This document shows, one piece after another, positions 22,596 through 32,643 of a stretch of 42,196 nt of DNA. Source of the stretch: Minisyncoccota bacterium (GTDB taxonomy: Bacteria; Patescibacteriota; Minisyncoccia; UBA6257; JAGOQP01). Each line of letters opens with the position of its first letter. The stretch's first letter is position 1. The stretch is from assembly GCA_017991375.1 (NCBI GenBank), contig JAGOQP010000002.1:66259-108454 (forward strand). The letters are read 5' to 3'. The notes beneath the pieces were generated by a model. It saw nothing but the letters and a program-made list of their open reading frames with translations, made no database searches and was not told where the DNA came from. The position numbers and the translations under genes were made by a program.

Positions 22596-23567
22596 ATGTT
22601 TGTAGATGAAATAACCATACGCGTACGCTCCGGAAACGGTGGTTCCGGCGCTGTTGCGTTTAACAAAAACATGATGGAGCTTGGGCCTACTGGCGCGAGC
22701 GGTGGCACCGGAGGCAATGTAGTGCTCCATGCGGTAGCCGACTTAAACGCGCTGGCGCATTTTCGATATAAAAAAGAATGGAACGCGCAAGATGGAGAAA
22801 ATGGCCGCGCGCAATTTCATGATGGAAAAGATGGCGCCGATATCATATTGCAAGTGCCAGTGGGAACAGTGGCTCACCATCTTACTACTAAAGAAGATAT
22901 TGAATTAACACACGTGGGGGAGACGGTTATTCTTGCTAAGGGTGGTGCGGGCGGGAGAGGGAATTTCCATTTTAGATCGTCAACCAACACAAGCCCCAAA
23001 AGAGCAGAAAATGGAAAACCAGGAGAACAATTTGAAATTCGGCTCGAGCTTAAATTAATCGCGGACGTGGGGCTTATTGGTCTTCCGAATGTGGGAAAGT
23101 CCAGCTTACTAAACGAGCTCACGCGAGCTAAAAGCAAAGTTGCTAATTATCCGTTTACCACGCTTGAGCCCAATTTGGGAGTGTACTATGGGGGAGTGAT
23201 TATTGCCGATATTCCAGGACTTATTGAAGGCGCTGCTCATGGCAAAGGATTGGGAGATAAATTCTTGCGGCACATTGAACGAACGCATGTATTATTTCAT
23301 TTGGTCTCGGCAACATCGCACGACCCCGTTGGTGACTATAAGGTGGTTCGTAACGAATTGGCGACATACAATAAAACACTTTGCAAGAAAACGGAGTACG
23401 TGCTGATAAGCAAAAGTGACGAAGTTGATGATAAAATGCTCAAAAAAATAGTAAGCGCTCTTAAAAAACAAAACAAAAACACCATAGCTATTTCGGCTAT
23501 AGATGATCAGAAAATGGAAGCGGTACGAGCCCTTCTTAACCAACTAGAAAAAGAAAAGAGTGGATGA
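22596..23567 (+). CDS. obgE: GTPase Obg/CgtA
   Basis: 323 aa. The Gly-rich Obg fold occupies residues 1-155 (FVDEITIRVRSGNGGSGAVAFN, GPTGASGGTGGNV, AKGGAGGRGNFHFRSSTN). The GTPase domain follows: G1 GLPNVGKSSLLNEL, switch NYPFTTLEPNLG, G3 ADIPGLIEGAAHGKGLG with FLRHIERTHVLFHLV, and G4 ISKSDEVDD, where SKSD replaces the common NKID. The C-terminal OCT domain is absent, as in many short Obg proteins. It acts in late 50S assembly and the stress response. Confidence 0.95.
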   Translation: MFVDEITIRVRSGNGGSGAVAFNKNMMELGPTGASGGTGGNVVLHAVADLNALAHFRYKKEWNAQDGENGRAQFHDGKDGADIILQVPVGTVAHHLTTKEDIELTHVGETVILAKGGAGGRGNFHFRSSTNTSPKRAENGKPGEQFEIRLELKLIADVGLIGLPNVGKSSLLNELTRAKSKVANYPFTTLEPNLGVYYGGVIIADIPGLIEGAAHGKGLGDKFLRHIERTHVLFHLVSATSHDPVGDYKVVRNELATYNKTLCKKTEYVLISKSDEVDDKMLKKIVSALKKQNKNTIAISAIDDQKMEAVRALLNQLEKEKSG

Positions 23568-24413: not shown

Positions 24414-24442
24414 TTGACATTTTAATAAAGATATGCTAGTAT
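24414..24442 (+). promoter_or_regulatory. Promoter of the structured RNA
   Basis: TTGACA (24414-24419), a 17-bp spacer and TAGTAT (24437-24442). Expected start near 24449. Confidence 0.82.
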
Positions 24443-24448
24443 TACTCT

Positions 24449-24834
24449 GTGGAAACTGTGGCGATTCTTACGCGAGGAGCCATCAAGCGGCGCACCGATG
24501 GGGTCGGTGGTCGGCCACTGAGAGGGTAGTCTCCTAGAGGGACTAATATCCTCGCAAAGAACGAACCATAGGTTCGCAAAATGCCCGGAGGGGCACTGGG
24601 GTTCTGGAAACAATCCAACCCCAAACAAAAAGGGGGTGTAAGCACTCTTGCCCTACACAACACAGCCCGAGAGGCCAAACGTTGTAGGAAAGACAGCTGC
24701 TCACCCCACCTAAAACAACGGGGAAACCCGTAAAATGTACCAGAGGTTATGCGACATAACCTCGGCGGGCCTTCCAAGAGTTCGCCAAAAAATGTCGCTC
24801 TAACCGCCTAGGGAGACCGAAGCGGTTTTTTTTT
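24449..24834 (+). ncRNA. Independently transcribed structured RNA, about 385 nt, not recognised
   Basis: It has a strong promoter (24414-24442) and a terminator (24802-24834), and no SD-led ORF on the plus strand. Helices I can draw: a closing P1 TGGCGA/TCGCCA (24459-24464/24782-24787, extended by CTT/AAG); GCGAGGA/TCCTCGC (24472-24478/24549-24555) enclosing ACCGA/TCGGT and TAGTC/GACTA hairpins; CGAACC/GGTTCG (24562-24576); TGCCC/GGGCA (24582-24595); TGGGGTT/AACCCCA (24597-24623); a long-range helix GGGGTG+AGCA/TGCT+CACCCC (24633-24644/24698-24707) enclosing CCTAC..AAC/GTTGTAGG; ACGGG-GAAA-CCCGT (24718-24731); GAGGTTAT/ATAACCTC (24743-24763). RNase P, tmRNA, SRP and 6S hallmarks were looked for and are absent. 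A novel or highly divergent RNA is the best reading. Confidence 0.75.
24802..24834 (+). terminator. Terminator of the structured RNA
   Basis: AACCGC (24802-24807) pairs with GCGGTT (24822-24827), followed by a long T-run. Confidence 0.88.
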
Positions 24835-24862
24835 AAAACAAAACCCGCCGATGGCGGGTGGG
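24835..24862 (-). terminator. Minus-strand terminator, repeated type (copy 1)
   Basis: CCCGCC-GAT-GGCGGG (24844-24858); read on the minus strand it ends in TTTTGTTTT. The same block (AAAACAAAACCCGCCGATGG and beyond) recurs at 26064-26094. Confidence 0.82.
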
Positions 24863-24889
24863 TGAGTGATATGGTGCTGTATATAAAGA

Positions 24890-25279
24890 TTAGGAGCTTG
24901 GGATGTCTTCTCCAAAAAGAGCAGCTTTTTCGGCCATGGTGAGCTTTGACAATGCTTTGCTGCGGAGCCCCTCTCCCACTTTCTTATCTATGAGTGCAAT
25001 CTCCACGGGGGGCGATAGGAGAATAACTTTAGTGTTCCTAAGTCGACATGCAATCCTTGGTTCAACATCTGCATCGTGTCCCATAATACCAAGCCCACTT
25101 GCCCCAATAGTAGCCTCTAGCTCAGTAAGATGGTAAGAATGATCGATGTACTCACCACGTCCTTCAGTTGAGTCGGTATTGACAACAACGGCGTAGATAA
25201 CGATAACCGTTCCGAACAATTCTGTTCCTTTGGGGAAAATGTCAAAAAGTTCACTGGTTATAAGTTTACTTTTTGTCAT
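24890..25279 (-). CDS. Unknown soluble protein, 129 aa
   Basis: The start at 25279 is set by GGGAGG five to ten bases upstream; a longer frame to 25327 runs back into the promoter. The protein begins MTKSKLITSELFDIFPKGTELFGTVIVIYAVVV. The middle (EYIDHSYHLTELEATIGASGLGIMGHDADVEPRIACRLRNTKVILLSPPVEIAL) is rich in beta strands, followed by a helical end. No motif recognised. The promoter, on the minus strand, is TTGACA with a weak TACCAT. It has its own terminator and belongs to the strong-SD class. Confidence 0.65.
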   Translation of the reverse strand: MTKSKLITSELFDIFPKGTELFGTVIVIYAVVVNTDSTEGRGEYIDHSYHLTELEATIGASGLGIMGHDADVEPRIACRLRNTKVILLSPPVEIALIDKKVGEGLRSKALSKLTMAEKAALFGEDIPSS

Positions 25280-25313
25280 CGTCTTATCCTCCCGCCAGCA
25301 TGGTATCATGCGG

Positions 25314-25349
25314 ATATCTTTTGTCAAATACGGACAAAAACAAACCGCC
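25314..25349 (-). repeat. Terminator-tail/promoter junction, copy 1
   Basis: On the minus strand GGCGGTTTGTTTTTGTCC followed by GTATTTGACAAAAGATA occurs here and at 26388-26422. It joins the U-tract of one gene's terminator to the -35 box (TTGACA) of the next. Confidence 0.85.
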
Positions 25350-25369
25350 TAGTCGGATAGCTAGGGTTT
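25335..25369 (-). terminator. Terminator of the 206-aa gene
   Basis: Minus strand AACCCTAG pairs with CTAGG..GGTT (2-nt bulge), then TTGTTTTTG. Confidence 0.7.
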
Positions 25370-25383
25370 TTGTAAAACTTAAC

Positions 25384-26004
25384 TTAAGGAGTATATTGCT
25401 CCTTTATGCCGACAACTATATTAAGAGGATTTATAGTTATAACAAATAAATTATGAAACTTTCCACCGTCAGGCGTTAAATTGCTTTCGTTATTGAATGC
25501 TTTGTATAAAAGATCTACGCGCGTCAAATTGCCCGTGGTGTTCAATCCCACGCTGTCATCGAATTTTCCCTCATTCGTCACATTTGTTGTCACAAACACT
25601 GATGCGTTTTTATCTATCTCAAAAGTTCTTACAAACGGATTTGAGTTAATAATACAATAACCATTATTAAATTCCCCCCATTGATTACTCGCTCTACATA
25701 TCTTCTCATCCGTTATCCATTGTATATAATCTATATCTAAGTAGTATGTGTTATTTTTGAAATAAATATTTTTTATGAATCCAGTTTGCTGGTCTATTGT
25801 GGCATGTGGTGAAACGATCGGGGTTATAACTTGATTTGGTGTCTGTGTGAGAGATTGGCGAGCGTTTTCTCCTGCTGTTGTTGGTGGGGCTGATTTATAC
25901 TTGGTTTTAAAATAATATAATTCACCGCCGATGACTAGGAGGCCAGTAATAATAAATAATATTGCTGTTGCAGTAAGTAAGGTCTTTTTTGATGAAGATT
26001 TCAT
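25384..26004 (-). CDS. Exported or membrane-anchored protein, 206 aa
   Basis: One N-terminal membrane helix (LLTATAILFIITGLLVIGGELYYF, residues 9-32) and a Pro/Thr/Gln-rich linker (40-70) lead to an extracytoplasmic domain of strands: FIKNIYFKNNTYYLDIDYIQWI, GYCIINSNPFVRTFEIDKNASVFVTT, LFVITINPLNIVVGIKEQY. Two Cys residues (about 104 and 118) could form a disulfide. Similar single-anchor surface proteins are frequent in CPR genomes. Function unknown. A weak TAATAT lies close to the ATG, suggesting a leaderless mRNA. Confidence 0.68.
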   Translation of the reverse strand: MKSSSKKTLLTATAILFIITGLLVIGGELYYFKTKYKSAPPTTAGENARQSLTQTPNQVITPIVSPHATIDQQTGFIKNIYFKNNTYYLDIDYIQWITDEKICRASNQWGEFNNGYCIINSNPFVRTFEIDKNASVFVTTNVTNEGKFDDSVGLNTTGNLTRVDLLYKAFNNESNLTPDGGKFHNLFVITINPLNIVVGIKEQYTP

Positions 26005-26061
26005 TTTTATATTACATCAAAAAATGCTCTAAAAAGCAAGCATAATCGATTTCTATAGATA

Positions 26062-26094
26062 CAAAAACAAAACCCGCCGATGGCGGGTGGGTGA
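26062..26094 (-). terminator. Minus-strand terminator, repeated type (copy 2)
   Basis: CCCGCC (26073-26078) and GGCGGG (26082-26087); sequence nearly identical to 24835-24866, including the flanking AAAACAAAA and GTGGGTGA. Confidence 0.82.
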
Positions 26095-26116
26095 ATACAA
26101 AGAGTACTGTGTGGGA

Positions 26117-26350
26117 CTAGGGGACTATTGGGCTTGAGTTGTTGAGCAGGAAAATGGTTGAGAGATGCCCCTCAGTAGTAACGTCTGGGTCGTTCCTGTC
26201 CCCGGAAATGATATACAACCCCACCTTATAACCTTCATCCTCTCTTGATGAAACCAAACTTACTGTCGCGCGGATTCTGGAGACAAAAAAGAAAAATGCG
26301 ATCAACAAGAGAAGCAATAACTCAAAACGTCCCAAGAGCTCGTGTACCAT
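26117..26350 (-). CDS. Small membrane-anchored protein, 77 aa
   Basis: The SD GAGGAGGG lies 7 nt before the ATG at 26350. The promoter on the minus strand is TTGACA-17-TAGTAT, in the repeated junction at 26388-26422. One membrane helix (FELLLLLLIAFFFFVSRIRA, residues 9-28) is followed by a polar beta-rich tail (VSLVSSREDEGYKVGLYIISGDRNDPD). No domain recognised. It is a one-gene unit with a repeated-type terminator. Confidence 0.65.
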   Translation of the reverse strand: MVHELLGRFELLLLLLIAFFFFVSRIRATVSLVSSREDEGYKVGLYIISGDRNDPDVTTEGHLSTIFLLNNSSPIVP

Positions 26351-26387
26351 GTAAGAGCCCTCCTCGCTATATACTAGCACTAATAGT

Positions 26388-26422
26388 ATCTTTTGTCAAA
26401 TACGGACAAAAACAAACCGCCC
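26388..26422 (-). repeat. Terminator-tail/promoter junction, copy 2
   Basis: Same junction as 25314-25349. Here the TTGACA belongs to the 77-aa gene and the U-tract to the 75-aa gene's terminator. Confidence 0.85.
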
Positions 26423-26440
26423 AAGGCGTTTCTGGGCGGT
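26405..26440 (-). terminator. Terminator of the 75-aa gene
   Basis: Minus strand ACCGCCCA pairs with TGGGCGGT (26416-26423/26433-26440), then TTTGTTTTTG. Confidence 0.85.
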
Positions 26441-26461
26441 GAGTGTACTACTTGATGAGCG

Positions 26462-26689
26462 TCAGGTTGACATCACCATGACGGGGATCGTGCCCAAGTT
26501 CGTCACGATCTCCACCATGAACGCCAGCCCGCCGCGAGAGGGATGGGGGAGAATCTCTACGTTCTCCCCGTCAATCCCAATCTCGGCGAGGCGGGACCGG
26601 ATGTCTGCCTCTGAGCGAGGCGGGGCGGGCCCTCGAACGGCAGCCCGCGCGCGGTTGGACAATTCAACAAACGGAGACGGTTTGAGCAT
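26462..26689 (-). CDS. Unknown GC-rich small protein, 75 aa
   Basis: The SD AAGGAGGAAGGAA lies directly before the ATG at 26689. The protein has an Ala/Arg/Pro-rich first half (ELSNRARAAVRGPAPPRSEADIRSRLAEIGI) and a hydrophobic C-terminal strand region (GLAFMVEIVTNLGTIPVMVM). The coding sequence is markedly richer in G and C than its neighbours, which hints at a different origin. No domain recognised. The A+T-rich promoter region upstream contains TTGACAAATCG on the minus strand. Confidence 0.6.
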   Translation of the reverse strand: MLKPSPFVELSNRARAAVRGPAPPRSEADIRSRLAEIGIDGENVEILPHPSRGGLAFMVEIVTNLGTIPVMVMST

Positions 26690-26775
26690 TTCCTTCCTCC
26701 TTTTCTGATATCGAACACATATTAGCACACTAAGTACGATTTGTCAAGCCCTCTGGGAGAAATAGCGTTACGATC

Positions 26776-27243
26776 CTATTTTAATAAATCACTTGGGGTA
26801 ACCCATTTGGCGTTAGGCAAGCTATTACAAGACGCGCGAGCATAGGGGACTGACTCTTCATCATATTCACCTGGGCCTTCTTTGTAGACCCACGCGATTA
26901 TTTCCATTACAGTCCCGCCATTTGTTTGACAACCACCAAAGTCAGAATAAGGGCACGCGTATGTTGAAAAAGTTCCCGCGTTGGAGCAATTAAGTTGCGC
27001 CATATTGTTATCGTTCCACATTGACCCGACGTAATCTATGCAATTGCTCGCGTTCGTAATCGCGTTACAGCTTCCGTACACCGTTCTTTTTCCTGTCTCT
27101 TTAAGGGCCTCTTTAATAGTCCCGACATCTTCGCTTTCCACGGCGGTATTATCGTGTGGTAGTTCGCTGCTATCTCCACCTATGAGATAGTACGCGAACC
27201 CTGCCGCGCCAAAAATAAGGATAACTGCTAAAACTTTGTACAT
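26776..27243 (-). CDS. Exported Cys-rich protein, 155 aa
   Basis: MYKVLAVILIFGAAGFAYYLIGG is a membrane anchor or signal. The rest is extracytoplasmic with eight Cys residues (GSCNAITNASNCIDYVG, QLNCSNAGTF, YACPYSDFGGCQTNGG, ARASCNSLP), so two or more disulfides are likely. The ATG follows a minus-strand TATACA (27251-27256) by 7 nt: leaderless. Family unknown. Confidence 0.65.
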   Translation of the reverse strand: MYKVLAVILIFGAAGFAYYLIGGDSSELPHDNTAVESEDVGTIKEALKETGKRTVYGSCNAITNASNCIDYVGSMWNDNNMAQLNCSNAGTFSTYACPYSDFGGCQTNGGTVMEIIAWVYKEGPGEYDEESVPYARASCNSLPNAKWVTPSDLLK

Positions 27244-27300
27244 ATGTGTATGTATAATTAATAATCACCAATAACGCAATTGTATCACACTAATTGTTTT

Positions 27301-28419
27301 CTAGTACTTTGATCTAAATTTTTTTAAATCCTTTTTGGCTTTTTTTATAAATTTTCCAAACTGTTTATTTTTTTCTCTTTTTTCAAAATCGCTCATATCA
27401 TAATGCGCAGCTTCTTTTTTAAGAGTAATGTAGTTGGCGTATTGTTTTTGGTCTAACGTGCCAGCCGTCACGGCTGCCACTACGGCGCACCCGGGCTCGT
27501 GAGTGTGTGTACAATCTACATATCGGCACTCGTGGGCCTCTGCGGTGATGTGATCAAAGAAAGAATCAACTCCCGCGCGAGCGTTACCAATGCCAACCTC
27601 GCGCATGCCTGGATTGTCAATAACCATACCACGGGTAACGGTAGAACCATCCTCGGACAGAACATACATATGTCGACTGGTAGTAATGTGTTTACCTCTG
27701 CCCGAATATGAACTAATATCCTCCGTTTTTATAGTGTCATTTTTGAGCAGTCTGTTTATCAATGTTGATTTTCCAACTCCCGAAGAGCCAAGAAAACAAT
27801 ACGTTTTTCCCGTGGTGATGCGCGCTCTTAACTCATCAAGACCTTTATCGCTCAGGGTGCTGGTGAGAATAACATCAATAGCGGGAAATCTTTTGGTGAG
27901 CTCGGATAGTTTTTCTTGCAATTCTTTCTCAGGGAGAAGATCTATCTTGTTTAGTACAATAATTGGTTGTACTCCACCGTCTTGCGCGATTGCACAATAA
28001 CGTTCAAAACGATTTAAACTGTAGTCACGGTCAACAGATTGGATAATAAATGCCGTATCAATGTTTGTGGCAATGGGTTGTTCCGCTCCTTTATATGTTC
28101 TTTTGATAGTGGTTGCCCTCGGGAGTATGCCACGAATAATAGCGCGGCTCAGTGTGCGCGTGGTCGCTGACGCTGATTTGTCACTGTGATCAATTACTTC
28201 AATAGCAACCCAATCCCCAACAACCGGATAATCTATGCGACTTGATGCTCGAAATATATGCTTACCTGTTATGGTGGCCCAATATTCTCCCTCACTATTC
28301 TTTACTTGATAAGCTCCTTTATGTTCGGTAATTACTCGAGCAACGGAAAAACAACTCAAACCGAGCTCTTTTCTTTTTTCTTCAAAAAATAAATTATATC
28401 CTAAATCTTCAAGCGTCAT
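27301..28419 (-). CDS. rsgA: Ribosome-dependent GTPase RsgA (YjeQ)
   Basis: 372 aa. An N-terminal OB fold (ARVITEHKGAYQVKNSEGEYWATITGK) is followed by the circularly permuted GTPase with motif order G4-G1-G3: VLNKIDLLPE, FLGSSGVGKSTLINRL, MVIDNPGMREVG. The C-terminal zinc motif is CRYVDCTHTHEPGC. RsgA checks 30S maturation and releases RbfA. A minus-strand TAGGAT lies 9 nt before the ATG, but the sequence in front is the terminator of the upstream MFS gene, because a 2-kb segment has been inserted in the promoter region (see the 77-bp repeats). Confidence 0.95.
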   Translation of the reverse strand: MTLEDLGYNLFFEEKRKELGLSCFSVARVITEHKGAYQVKNSEGEYWATITGKHIFRASSRIDYPVVGDWVAIEVIDHSDKSASATTRTLSRAIIRGILPRATTIKRTYKGAEQPIATNIDTAFIIQSVDRDYSLNRFERYCAIAQDGGVQPIIVLNKIDLLPEKELQEKLSELTKRFPAIDVILTSTLSDKGLDELRARITTGKTYCFLGSSGVGKSTLINRLLKNDTIKTEDISSYSGRGKHITTSRHMYVLSEDGSTVTRGMVIDNPGMREVGIGNARAGVDSFFDHITAEAHECRYVDCTHTHEPGCAVVAAVTAGTLDQKQYANYITLKKEAAHYDMSDFEKREKNKQFGKFIKKAKKDLKKFRSKY

Positions 28420-28443
28420 AGTGTTTTTATCCTATCAAAAAAC
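28367..28443 (-). repeat. 77-bp direct repeat, copy at the intact rsgA start
   Basis: Identical to 30378-30454. It covers 24 nt upstream of the rsgA ATG, including the -10 box, and the first 53 nt of the gene. Confidence 0.95.
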
Positions 28444-28472
28444 CACCCCTAGGCAAAATGCTTTGGGGTGGG
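28436..28472 (-). terminator. Terminator of the MFS gene
   Basis: CCACCCC (28443-28449) pairs with GGGGTGG (28465-28471); on the minus strand a T6 tail follows. 32 bp (28437-28468) are identical to 29783-29814. Confidence 0.82.
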
Positions 28473-28477
28473 GGATC

Positions 28478-29716
28478 CTAGATTGCATCCAAATAGGACG
28501 AAGGGGAAACTAAAGCAATTTTTCGCTTCCAATGATGTAGAATTATCAGACCGATAATAACGAATAATGTCATAGCTCCGACGGCAATGCGATAACTTAA
28601 ACTTTGGACGCCTAATATCCATATTATCCCTCCCCAAGTAAGTGGCCCTATTAAAGTAGCAAAGCGTTCCGCTATTGTGTAAAAAGAAAATCCATATCTT
28701 TTGTCACTTTCTGGCAGCGCTTCAATCAAATGAGCTCTGGTTACAGTCCAGACTGAACCTACTAACAACCCCATAAGTGGAGTCAATATGAGTACAGTAA
28801 TAAAATTCGGCGCTACTGCTATTAAAGGAAGAAGAATAATCCAACCAATCAAAATGAGTCTTAATGTTTTTAATGCTCCTATTTTATCTCCCAACCAGCC
28901 GGCGACAACGCTGCCGATTGCGGACGTTACTAATATTGCAAGGAGTAAGATGGATTTGATTTTATCTGGGGTTTGAAAGACTCGTTCTAGAAAAATCGAG
29001 TAGTTATTGCTCACCGTCAATAGGGCATCGTTAAAAAAGAAAAATGCGACCAACATTGGTGTGGCTGCTGATAGAGCAAAGAATGTAATCATTTTTTTCA
29101 ACGCTCCCGGAGTTATATATTCTGGTCTTTTAAGATCATCGCCTCTACTAACACGTTCTGATTCTTTAAAAAAAATCATCATCGGCAACGCAAGAATAAA
29201 AAAGACGGGTACGGATATAAGAAGTGGAATTATCCTAGAGCTGGAGAATGGTAAGGTTATTAAAATTCCAAATACAAAACCTATTGAGCTAGCAAAATTG
29301 CCGATACCAGAAACTCTCGATTTATGTAACTCGTCCGCGATATCGTCTAACATCGGATTGTAGAAGACAAAAGACAATTGATAAAAGTACTGTCCAATCA
29401 GAAACATAAATGCAATTAGATACACATTTATGCCCATCCAGGCAAAGATTGCAGAAAGGAAATAGAAGAAAAAGGTGGCAAAAGTGGAGATATTTAACCA
29501 CCATTTCGCACCACCGCGTAAGTCGGTGTGAGACGCTAATACTGGAGCTGTAAACAAAAGAATTATTGATGTTATCGCAAATATTACGTTGTATGAAAAA
29601 TCAGACAAGCCGGCATCAATAACAATCCATTGGGCAAAGTATAAGATAAAATTTATATAAACAATAGAATTGGCAAAATCATATAGTGACCACAAAAAAA
29701 GTTTTTTCTTATCCAT
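28478..29716 (-). CDS. MFS transporter of the UMF1/Atg22 type
   Basis: 412 aa with about 12 membrane helices. The opening LFLWSLYDFANSIVYINFILYFAQWI carries the WxxYDxANS signature of the Atg22/UMF1 family (amino-acid or metabolite effluxers). SHTDLRGGAKWW matches the loop after helix 2, GIGNFASSIGFVFGI helix 5, and VVAGWLGDKIGALKTL the internal repeat of that loop. The ATG is 7 nt after TATTAT (29724-29729), so it is leaderless. It lies inside the segment bounded by the 77-bp repeats and may be acquired. Substrate unknown. Confidence 0.82.
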   Translation of the reverse strand: MDKKKLFLWSLYDFANSIVYINFILYFAQWIVIDAGLSDFSYNVIFAITSIILLFTAPVLASHTDLRGGAKWWLNISTFATFFFYFLSAIFAWMGINVYLIAFMFLIGQYFYQLSFVFYNPMLDDIADELHKSRVSGIGNFASSIGFVFGILITLPFSSSRIIPLLISVPVFFILALPMMIFFKESERVSRGDDLKRPEYITPGALKKMITFFALSAATPMLVAFFFFNDALLTVSNNYSIFLERVFQTPDKIKSILLLAILVTSAIGSVVAGWLGDKIGALKTLRLILIGWIILLPLIAVAPNFITVLILTPLMGLLVGSVWTVTRAHLIEALPESDKRYGFSFYTIAERFATLIGPLTWGGIIWILGVQSLSYRIAVGAMTLFVIIGLIILHHWKRKIALVSPSSYLDAI

Positions 29717-29782
29717 ACTAAAAATAATACCACATATCCGAACCTCGCAGAAGATTCACAAAATCGTTTCACGACTTTTCAT

Positions 29783-29817
29783 AAAAAACCACCCCTAGGC
29801 AAAATGCTTTGGGGCGG
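29783..29817 (-). terminator. Terminator of the 139-aa gene
   Basis: Same hairpin as 28436-28472, with one A-C mismatch in the stem; minus-strand T-tail. Confidence 0.78.
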
Positions 29818-29846
29818 GGGGTGCGTGCGTGCGCTAGTGGAAGCGA

Positions 29847-30266
29847 CTAGTCGAGTCCGTAGAACTTTCTTGCTAGGGGAGCCCATCGCTCCGTATCGTA
29901 CTTTGAGACAACGTCCTGGATCTGGGCGATCTGGAAGCGAGAGGAAAGAGATAGCTGCCAGGTTGGAACGAGCTTGTTGGGATATTCGCTGACAAGAACA
30001 GTCCCTTGTCCCTCGTCTGGAAAGACTACGATGCTGGAACGATCCTTCCATTTGTAGACGATGAAGTCGCCCTTCTCGGCCTTCTGCAGCTTGGTCGCGA
30101 TGGCCTTGAGGTGAGCTTCGTCGTTTTCCTTCGCGAGCGTTGCTTCGATTGCTGATATTCTCACCTTGTTGGCTTTTACGACGATGAATACAACCGATGA
30201 AACGAGTACAATCAGCAGGGTAATCGCAGGTATCAAAGACAGAGTCCACTTCATTCTGATTTTCAT
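29847..30266 (-). CDS. Membrane-anchored protein, 139 aa, unknown
   Basis: The SD GAGAGGAGAGG precedes the ATG at 30266. The promoter on the minus strand is TTGACA-17-TAGCAT, placed right after the truncated rsgA copy. One membrane helix (LSLIPAITLLIVLVSSVVFIVVKA, residues 9-32), a charged helix (RISAIEATLAKENDEAHLKAIATKLQKAEKG) and a small beta-rich domain (FIVYKWKDRSSIVVFPDEGQGTVLVSEY). Its base composition is more GC-rich than the MFS gene next to it. No family recognised. Confidence 0.65.
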   Translation of the reverse strand: MKIRMKWTLSLIPAITLLIVLVSSVVFIVVKANKVRISAIEATLAKENDEAHLKAIATKLQKAEKGDFIVYKWKDRSSIVVFPDEGQGTVLVSEYPNKLVPTWQLSLSSRFQIAQIQDVVSKYDTERWAPLARKFYGLD

Positions 30267-30377
30267 CGGCCTCTCCTCTCTTCGAGCTTGCCGCTACGAA
30301 GTCCTCGTAGCCAGGAATTTCGACTGTGTTGAGCTTTTTTTATGCTAGCACATACTATAACACTTGTCAACTTCTTG

Positions 30378-32086: not shown

Positions 32087-32198
32087 TCTTCAAAAATTCC
32101 ATTACATTTGTTAAAAAAGTCATCAACAAATAAAATCAGCTTTCTGATACTTTCTGGAATTGAAATTGAGAGCCCTCTACTCTCAAAGTCCTACGATG

Positions 32199-32270
32199 CT
32201 CCGGTGGTAGGACTCGAACCTACAGCCATCGCCTTAACAGGGCGCCGCTCTACCATTGAGCTACACCGGA
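32199..32270 (-). tRNA. tRNA-Asn (anticodon GTT)
   Basis: Read on the minus strand: acceptor TCCGGTG/CACCGGA, D-stem GCTC/GAGC, anticodon stem GCGCC/GGCGA around CTGTTAA (GTT), T-arm GTAGG/CCTAC with TTCGAGT, discriminator G. No encoded CCA. Confidence 0.95.
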
Positions 32271-32399
32271 ATATATTATGTACTCTCCAACGTAACTTAA
32301 CCCACAAATCTGGGTTTTCTTGACACTCGCTTGAAGCGAGTTACCATTGTCCGCTTCGCCACAGCGAACGGATCCACCTACGGCGGAAGCTACACCGGA
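32271..32399 (-). repeat. 129-bp unit 1: tRNA-Asn leader, hairpins and a tRNA-Asn 5' fragment
   Basis: It ends (32388-32399) with tRNA-Asn nucleotides 1-12, which on the minus strand run directly into TCCGCC-GTA-GGTGGA (32373-32387, one mismatch). Further stems: TTCGC/GCGAA, ACTCGCTT/AAGCGAGT, AACCCA/TGGGTT. A CATAAT box lies just before the tRNA. Confidence 0.92.
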
Positions 32400-32528
32400 A
32401 TATATTATGTACTCTCCAACGTAACTTAACCCACAAATCTGGGTTTTCTTGGCACTCGCTTGAAGCGAGTTACCATTGTCCGCTTCGCCACAGCGAACGG
32501 ATCCGCCTACGGCGGAAGCTACACCGGA
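32400..32528 (-). repeat. 129-bp unit 2, tandem copy
   Basis: Differs from unit 1 at two positions. The hairpin TCCGCC-GTA-GGCGGA (32502-32516) is perfect here and again abuts tRNA nucleotides 1-12 (32517-32528). Beyond 32530 the similarity stops. Confidence 0.92.
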
Positions 32529-32643
32529 ATTTTTGTTAAAGAGCAAAGAAACTGTATCAAAAATAGGCAAAAAAAACAAGTTTTAATACTTTACTTTTTT
32601 CCTGTTTTCGTGCATTGTGTAAACAGAACAAAGGAGGTATCTG

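Follow-up and report, generated by a model that had tools for sequence, protein, structure and literature searches.

OLE, ROOL and GOLLD are known as large ornate RNAs (PMC12286853), with OLE reaching a length of ~600 nt (PMC9723947). The locus examined here lies in a window of 42,196 nt (the whole stretch of DNA analysed), which forms the end of contig C5 in a genome of 687 kb that is 96.7% complete. Like OLE, ROOL and GOLLD, its predicted RNA is free-standing, large, complex and independent of a reading frame; unlike them, it has no Rfam match and no conservation across multiple lineages, and it measures ~385 nt rather than the ~600 nt of OLE. It also resembles bacterial RNase P RNA (RF00010) in length, fold z-score, hairpin density and possibly in its pairing ends, but it matches no RNase P model and lacks the conserved core, and the genome has a separate copy of that RNA. 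CsrB-type protein-sponge RNAs are likewise free-standing, multi-hairpin RNAs with their own promoter and terminator. The locus is similar to these in all such respects and in size, whereas its 387 nt contain no more than 8 GGA motifs, about the number expected from its composition. As described below, a free-standing structured RNA gene outside Rfam is well supported at this locus. It is likely to be a real, unrecognised RNA gene, and its product is probably a functional, trans-acting structured RNA specific to its lineage.

The unit is delimited by the following elements:

24414..24442, plus strand: extended -10 promoter, TTGACA-17-TAGTAT, the -10 being preceded by TGC; one of 26 genome-wide, of which 24 fall outside genes
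24449..24835, plus strand: predicted transcript of ~385 nt, from the sequence, with its start placed 7 nt after the -10
24802..24835, plus strand: intrinsic terminator with a 6-bp stem and nine T, from sequence and folding

The first-pass annotation had proposed a TTGACA-17-TAGTAT promoter and an intrinsic terminator, and both were confirmed at these positions: in the promoter, a perfect -35 is followed by a 17-nt spacer and, in addition to what had been proposed, a TG precedes the -10, while the terminator (AACCGC-N14-GCGGUU followed by nine T) folds at -11.4 kcal/mol. The strict motif TTGACA-N16..18-TANNNT occurs at 57 sites genome-wide (both strands, 1.37 Mb of strand), 26 of them with the TG, and the 24 counted as lying outside genes refer to genes called by a simple ORF rule. 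At the observed density, the probability that such a promoter occurs by chance no more than 100 nt from a chosen position is ~0.002. T runs of at least nine are found only twice in the genome, that of the terminator being one, and sites with a 6-bp stem followed by T7 number ~10. The next downstream gene (24890-25327) converges on the unit from the minus strand, where it has a promoter of its own and a terminator at 24859-24843; the RNA is therefore a separate unit, read in the plus direction. We also agree with the earlier claim that no reading frame led by a Shine-Dalgarno sequence is present, since the longest plus-strand ORF in the unit has 50 aa and no clear sequence of this kind. In having its own promoter and terminator and no reading frame, the unit conforms to a free-standing structured noncoding RNA. 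Overall, the earlier description largely holds: 24414-24835 has all the elements of a transcription unit and encodes no credible protein, its transcription being predicted from these sequence motifs.

The scan against all of Rfam that had been suggested for this locus was run and matched no known class. None of the 4227 families matched the stretch at the gathering score, and the matches at E <= 10 were at chance level only and included no RNase P, tmRNA, SRP or 6S RNA. No covariance model of OLE, ROOL, GOLLD, raiA or the other large RNAs in Rfam was matched either. The earlier statement that features of RNase P, tmRNA, SRP and 6S RNAs are absent was borne out by the Rfam search together with motif checks, and for two of these classes the exclusion is now demonstrated rather than inferred, as both were found elsewhere in the genome (RNase P RNA at C3:2723-3147, tmRNA at C10:46441-46766). 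RNase P RNA (RF00010) was rejected on this ground as well as for the missing model match and the absence of the conserved P4 core (GAGGAAAGUCC ... ACAGAA); the genome's own RNase P RNA scores weakly against its model, which, like the small genome size, is compatible with the suggested placement of this uncultured bacterium in the candidate phyla radiation. tmRNA (RF00023) was rejected because tRNA-like ends, a tag frame and a model match are lacking and the genome has its own copy. SRP RNA (RF00169, RF01854) was sought by a model match and by a helix 8 with a GGAA loop and AGCAG; there was no model match, the AGCAG and CAGG of helix 8 are absent, and a search for SRP RNA by motif returned nothing convincing. 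6S RNA (RF00013) gave no match at E <= 10, and the fold consists of multiple hairpins, not of a long hairpin with a central bubble. As a separate observation, SRP RNA and 6S RNA went undetected by Rfam in this genome and in 20 relatives, while the controls were detected. No SRP GTPase motif was found among this genome's ORFs of at least 90 aa, in keeping with the lack of a detected SRP RNA, and the SRP pathway may be absent from the lineage, as judged from these sequences.

For the full transcript, the predicted folding energy is -152.4 kcal/mol and the z-score is -6.57; none of 100 shuffled sequences folded as well. For comparison, the RNase P RNA and tmRNA of the genome have z-scores of -6.6 and -4.3, respectively. 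Fold energy alone is not exceptional here: 43 of the 243 intergenic windows of the genome reach z <= -5, and z <= -6.6 is reached by four others among 212 tiles of the window, the strongest of which coincide with a tandem duplication (z = -13.2) and with long palindromes. Hairpin density and loop composition are more telling than the z-score. Two of the three 300-nt windows of the RNA hold nine and ten hairpins, and nine or more are found in only 5 of the 243 intergenic windows (three at RNase P, one at a tRNA and one further). On the plus strand, A makes up 51% and U 10% of the unpaired positions, and G+C make up 65% of the paired ones; when the minus strand is folded, the unpaired bias flips to U. 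A loop composition as biased as this was seen in 5 of 150 background windows. Folded RNAs usually have A-rich joints on the transcribed strand.

Within the transcript, the following helices were obtained:

24459..24787, plus strand: structured core, with P1 formed by 24459-24469 and 24776-24787 (11 bp, one bulged U); central pairs at p ~0.98-0.99 without the terminator
24472..24555, plus strand: 7-bp helix GCGAGGA/UCCUCGC (24472-24478/24549-24555), a rival of the P1 extension; p 0.74 when the whole transcript is folded and 0.07 for the core by itself
24633..24707, plus strand: rod-like stack of four helices (GGGGUG, AGC, UCUU and CCUACA with their partners) with small internal loops; p 0.91-0.97
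24718..24731, plus strand: GAAA tetraloop hairpin, ACGGG-GAAA-CCCGU; p 0.99
24743..24763, plus strand: 9-bp hairpin, GAGGUUAUG-CGA-CAUAACCUC; p 0.92
24745..24805, plus strand: alternative helix of 12 bp, GGUUA.GCGACAU / AUGUCGC..UAACC, preferred when 24740-24806 is folded alone

The rod, which has z = -3.4 on its own, the GAAA hairpin and the 9-bp hairpin are present in most folds, as are hairpins at 24562-24576, 24582-24595 and 24597-24623. The way in which the ends are closed depends on the terminator: when it is omitted, P1 dominates and the 7-bp helix falls to its lower value, whereas in the minimum-energy fold of the full transcript the 7-bp helix forms and the 5' end is paired with the U run of the terminator in place of forming P1. 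A fold constrained to contain P1, the 7-bp helix and the terminator at once is penalised by ~9 kcal/mol, and the competing end-closure states differ by no more than ~3 kcal/mol. The alternative helix cannot coexist with the 9-bp hairpin or with the 5' arm of the terminator, which it would block, and in the full transcript it costs 2.9 kcal/mol relative to the best fold. The helices named in the first-pass annotation exist, but not all together in one fold. Its closed multi-branch architecture and ribozyme-class role were not supported, as no homologue that would allow a covariation analysis was found and several single-sequence folds are nearly equal in energy. The P1-type pairing of the two ends, scored as a duplex, is no better than chance (p ~0.08), and because of this value P1 was rejected as proof of a closed architecture. 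The exact fold and the ribozyme idea are unproven.

The RNA is present in a single copy in the genome, and searches of 243 other genomes of the order, 383 other genomes sampled from the class, 100 relatives, phages and plasmids gave no DNA homologue. In the comparison set, 12 genomes represent the same family and none the same genus. Two single-sequence covariance models gave only chance scores in 120 relatives and in other loci, and viral contigs, probed with short exact patterns only, yielded no relative. The best DNA match, an exact stretch of 22 nt (L048), was discarded since the DNA around it does not have the fold. As a control, blastn matched the genome's RNase P across the family with E down to 1e-23. 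Because RNase P is matched across the family and the RNA in no relative, it is not a shared housekeeping RNA; as far as these searches indicate, it is new in the lineage, acquired or fast-evolving. The surroundings were also compared. The gene obg ends at 23567 and rsgA begins at 27301 (minus strand), with small genes filling the interval; those tested had no match in Pfam (above cut-off), PHROGs, PADLOC or NCBIfam, and synteny behind obg is not preserved within the family. A 145-aa neighbour protein is absent from every relative searched, and a 76-aa neighbour protein was dropped as a lead, its spirochaete match being a response regulator hit by chance. Five of the genome's 26 extended -10 promoters fall within 6 kb (24414-30370 of the window), where 0.2 would be expected by length, and they precede small orphan genes and the ~385-nt RNA. 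These unmatched small genes and the promoter cluster indicate that the RNA is one unit within an island of monocistronic orphan genes.

Several other explanations were weighed against a functional RNA. Decayed or horizontally acquired DNA, perhaps transcribed but without function, would account for the absence of relatives everywhere searched and for the GC content of the RNA stretch (53% vs 43.5%), and structured intergenic windows are numerous in this genome; however, the promoter and terminator are intact and consensus-like and the composition of paired and unpaired positions is coherent, which makes such a remnant unlikely. We consider it quite unlikely that the unit is a cis-acting switch, in which a 5' domain would govern termination through two exclusive folds in the manner of a riboswitch or attenuator, one state holding the 9-bp hairpin with the terminator and the other the alternative helix, in which the terminator's 5' arm is sequestered. 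The alternative helix and the terminator do share AACC, which is the geometry of an antiterminator, but there is no gene to control: no same-strand gene lies directly downstream of the terminator, the convergent neighbour with its own promoter and terminator counts against a leader role, and a plus-strand ORF at 24903 is antisense to that gene and looks spurious.

An mRNA for a small protein, encoded by the 50-aa frame (24581-24733) or by a leaderless 26-aa frame at 24449, would suit a region rich in small orphan genes that share the promoter type. Yet these frames cross the most stable helices and, unlike those of the 76-aa and 129-aa neighbours, have no clear Shine-Dalgarno sequence, so that this reading appears very unlikely. 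It is still less probable that the locus encodes a very diverged known RNA, such as SRP RNA or 6S RNA, or else an additional copy of RNase P RNA or tmRNA. The failure of Rfam to find SRP RNA or 6S RNA in this genome or 20 relatives would leave room for it, but cmscan at E <= 10 yielded none of these classes, the SRP helix 8 motifs and the RNase P core are missing, the genome's ORFs are without an SRP GTPase motif, and blastn recovers RNase P across the family while the RNA is present in no relative.

For the preferred reading, a lineage-specific structured RNA acting in trans, the promoter and terminator motifs, the hairpin density, the plus-strand loop bias and the lack of a known family or detectable relatives come from the sequence; transcription itself, the fold, the action in trans and protein binding are what we infer from it. 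RNA polymerase would start near 24449 at the strong extended -10 promoter, and ~385 nt would be transcribed up to the terminator ending near 24835. The transcript is predicted to fold into closely packed hairpins linked by A-rich joints, and this folded RNA probably acts in trans rather than as the leader of a neighbour, most likely by binding protein or by serving as the scaffold of a small ribonucleoprotein. Genomes of ~0.7 Mb keep little noncoding DNA, and an RNA of this size with a strong promoter and no family in such a genome suggests a lineage-specific RNA function. It is possible but rather doubtful that the RNA, as a ribozyme or a ribonucleoprotein scaffold, belongs to a class of large structured bacterial RNAs that is new and confined to one genus-level lineage of ultra-small bacteria. 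The RNA would serve as a test case for how large RNAs arise and stay inside a single lineage.

Other structured DNA was also observed. At 32259-32530 of the window, a 129-bp unit is present in 2.1 tandem copies (98%) and repeats the 5' end of tRNA-Asn (32198-32270, minus strand). Two perfect palindromes of ~40 and 36 nt with GATC centres lie at 1824-1863 and 1951-1986, upstream of what we take, from reading the ORFs, to be an mraZ-like gene and rsmH. Elsewhere in the genome, ~400 nt at C4:20317-20710 (from base 317 of L118, C4:20001-35709) are densely filled with different perfect palindromes, with z ~-12.
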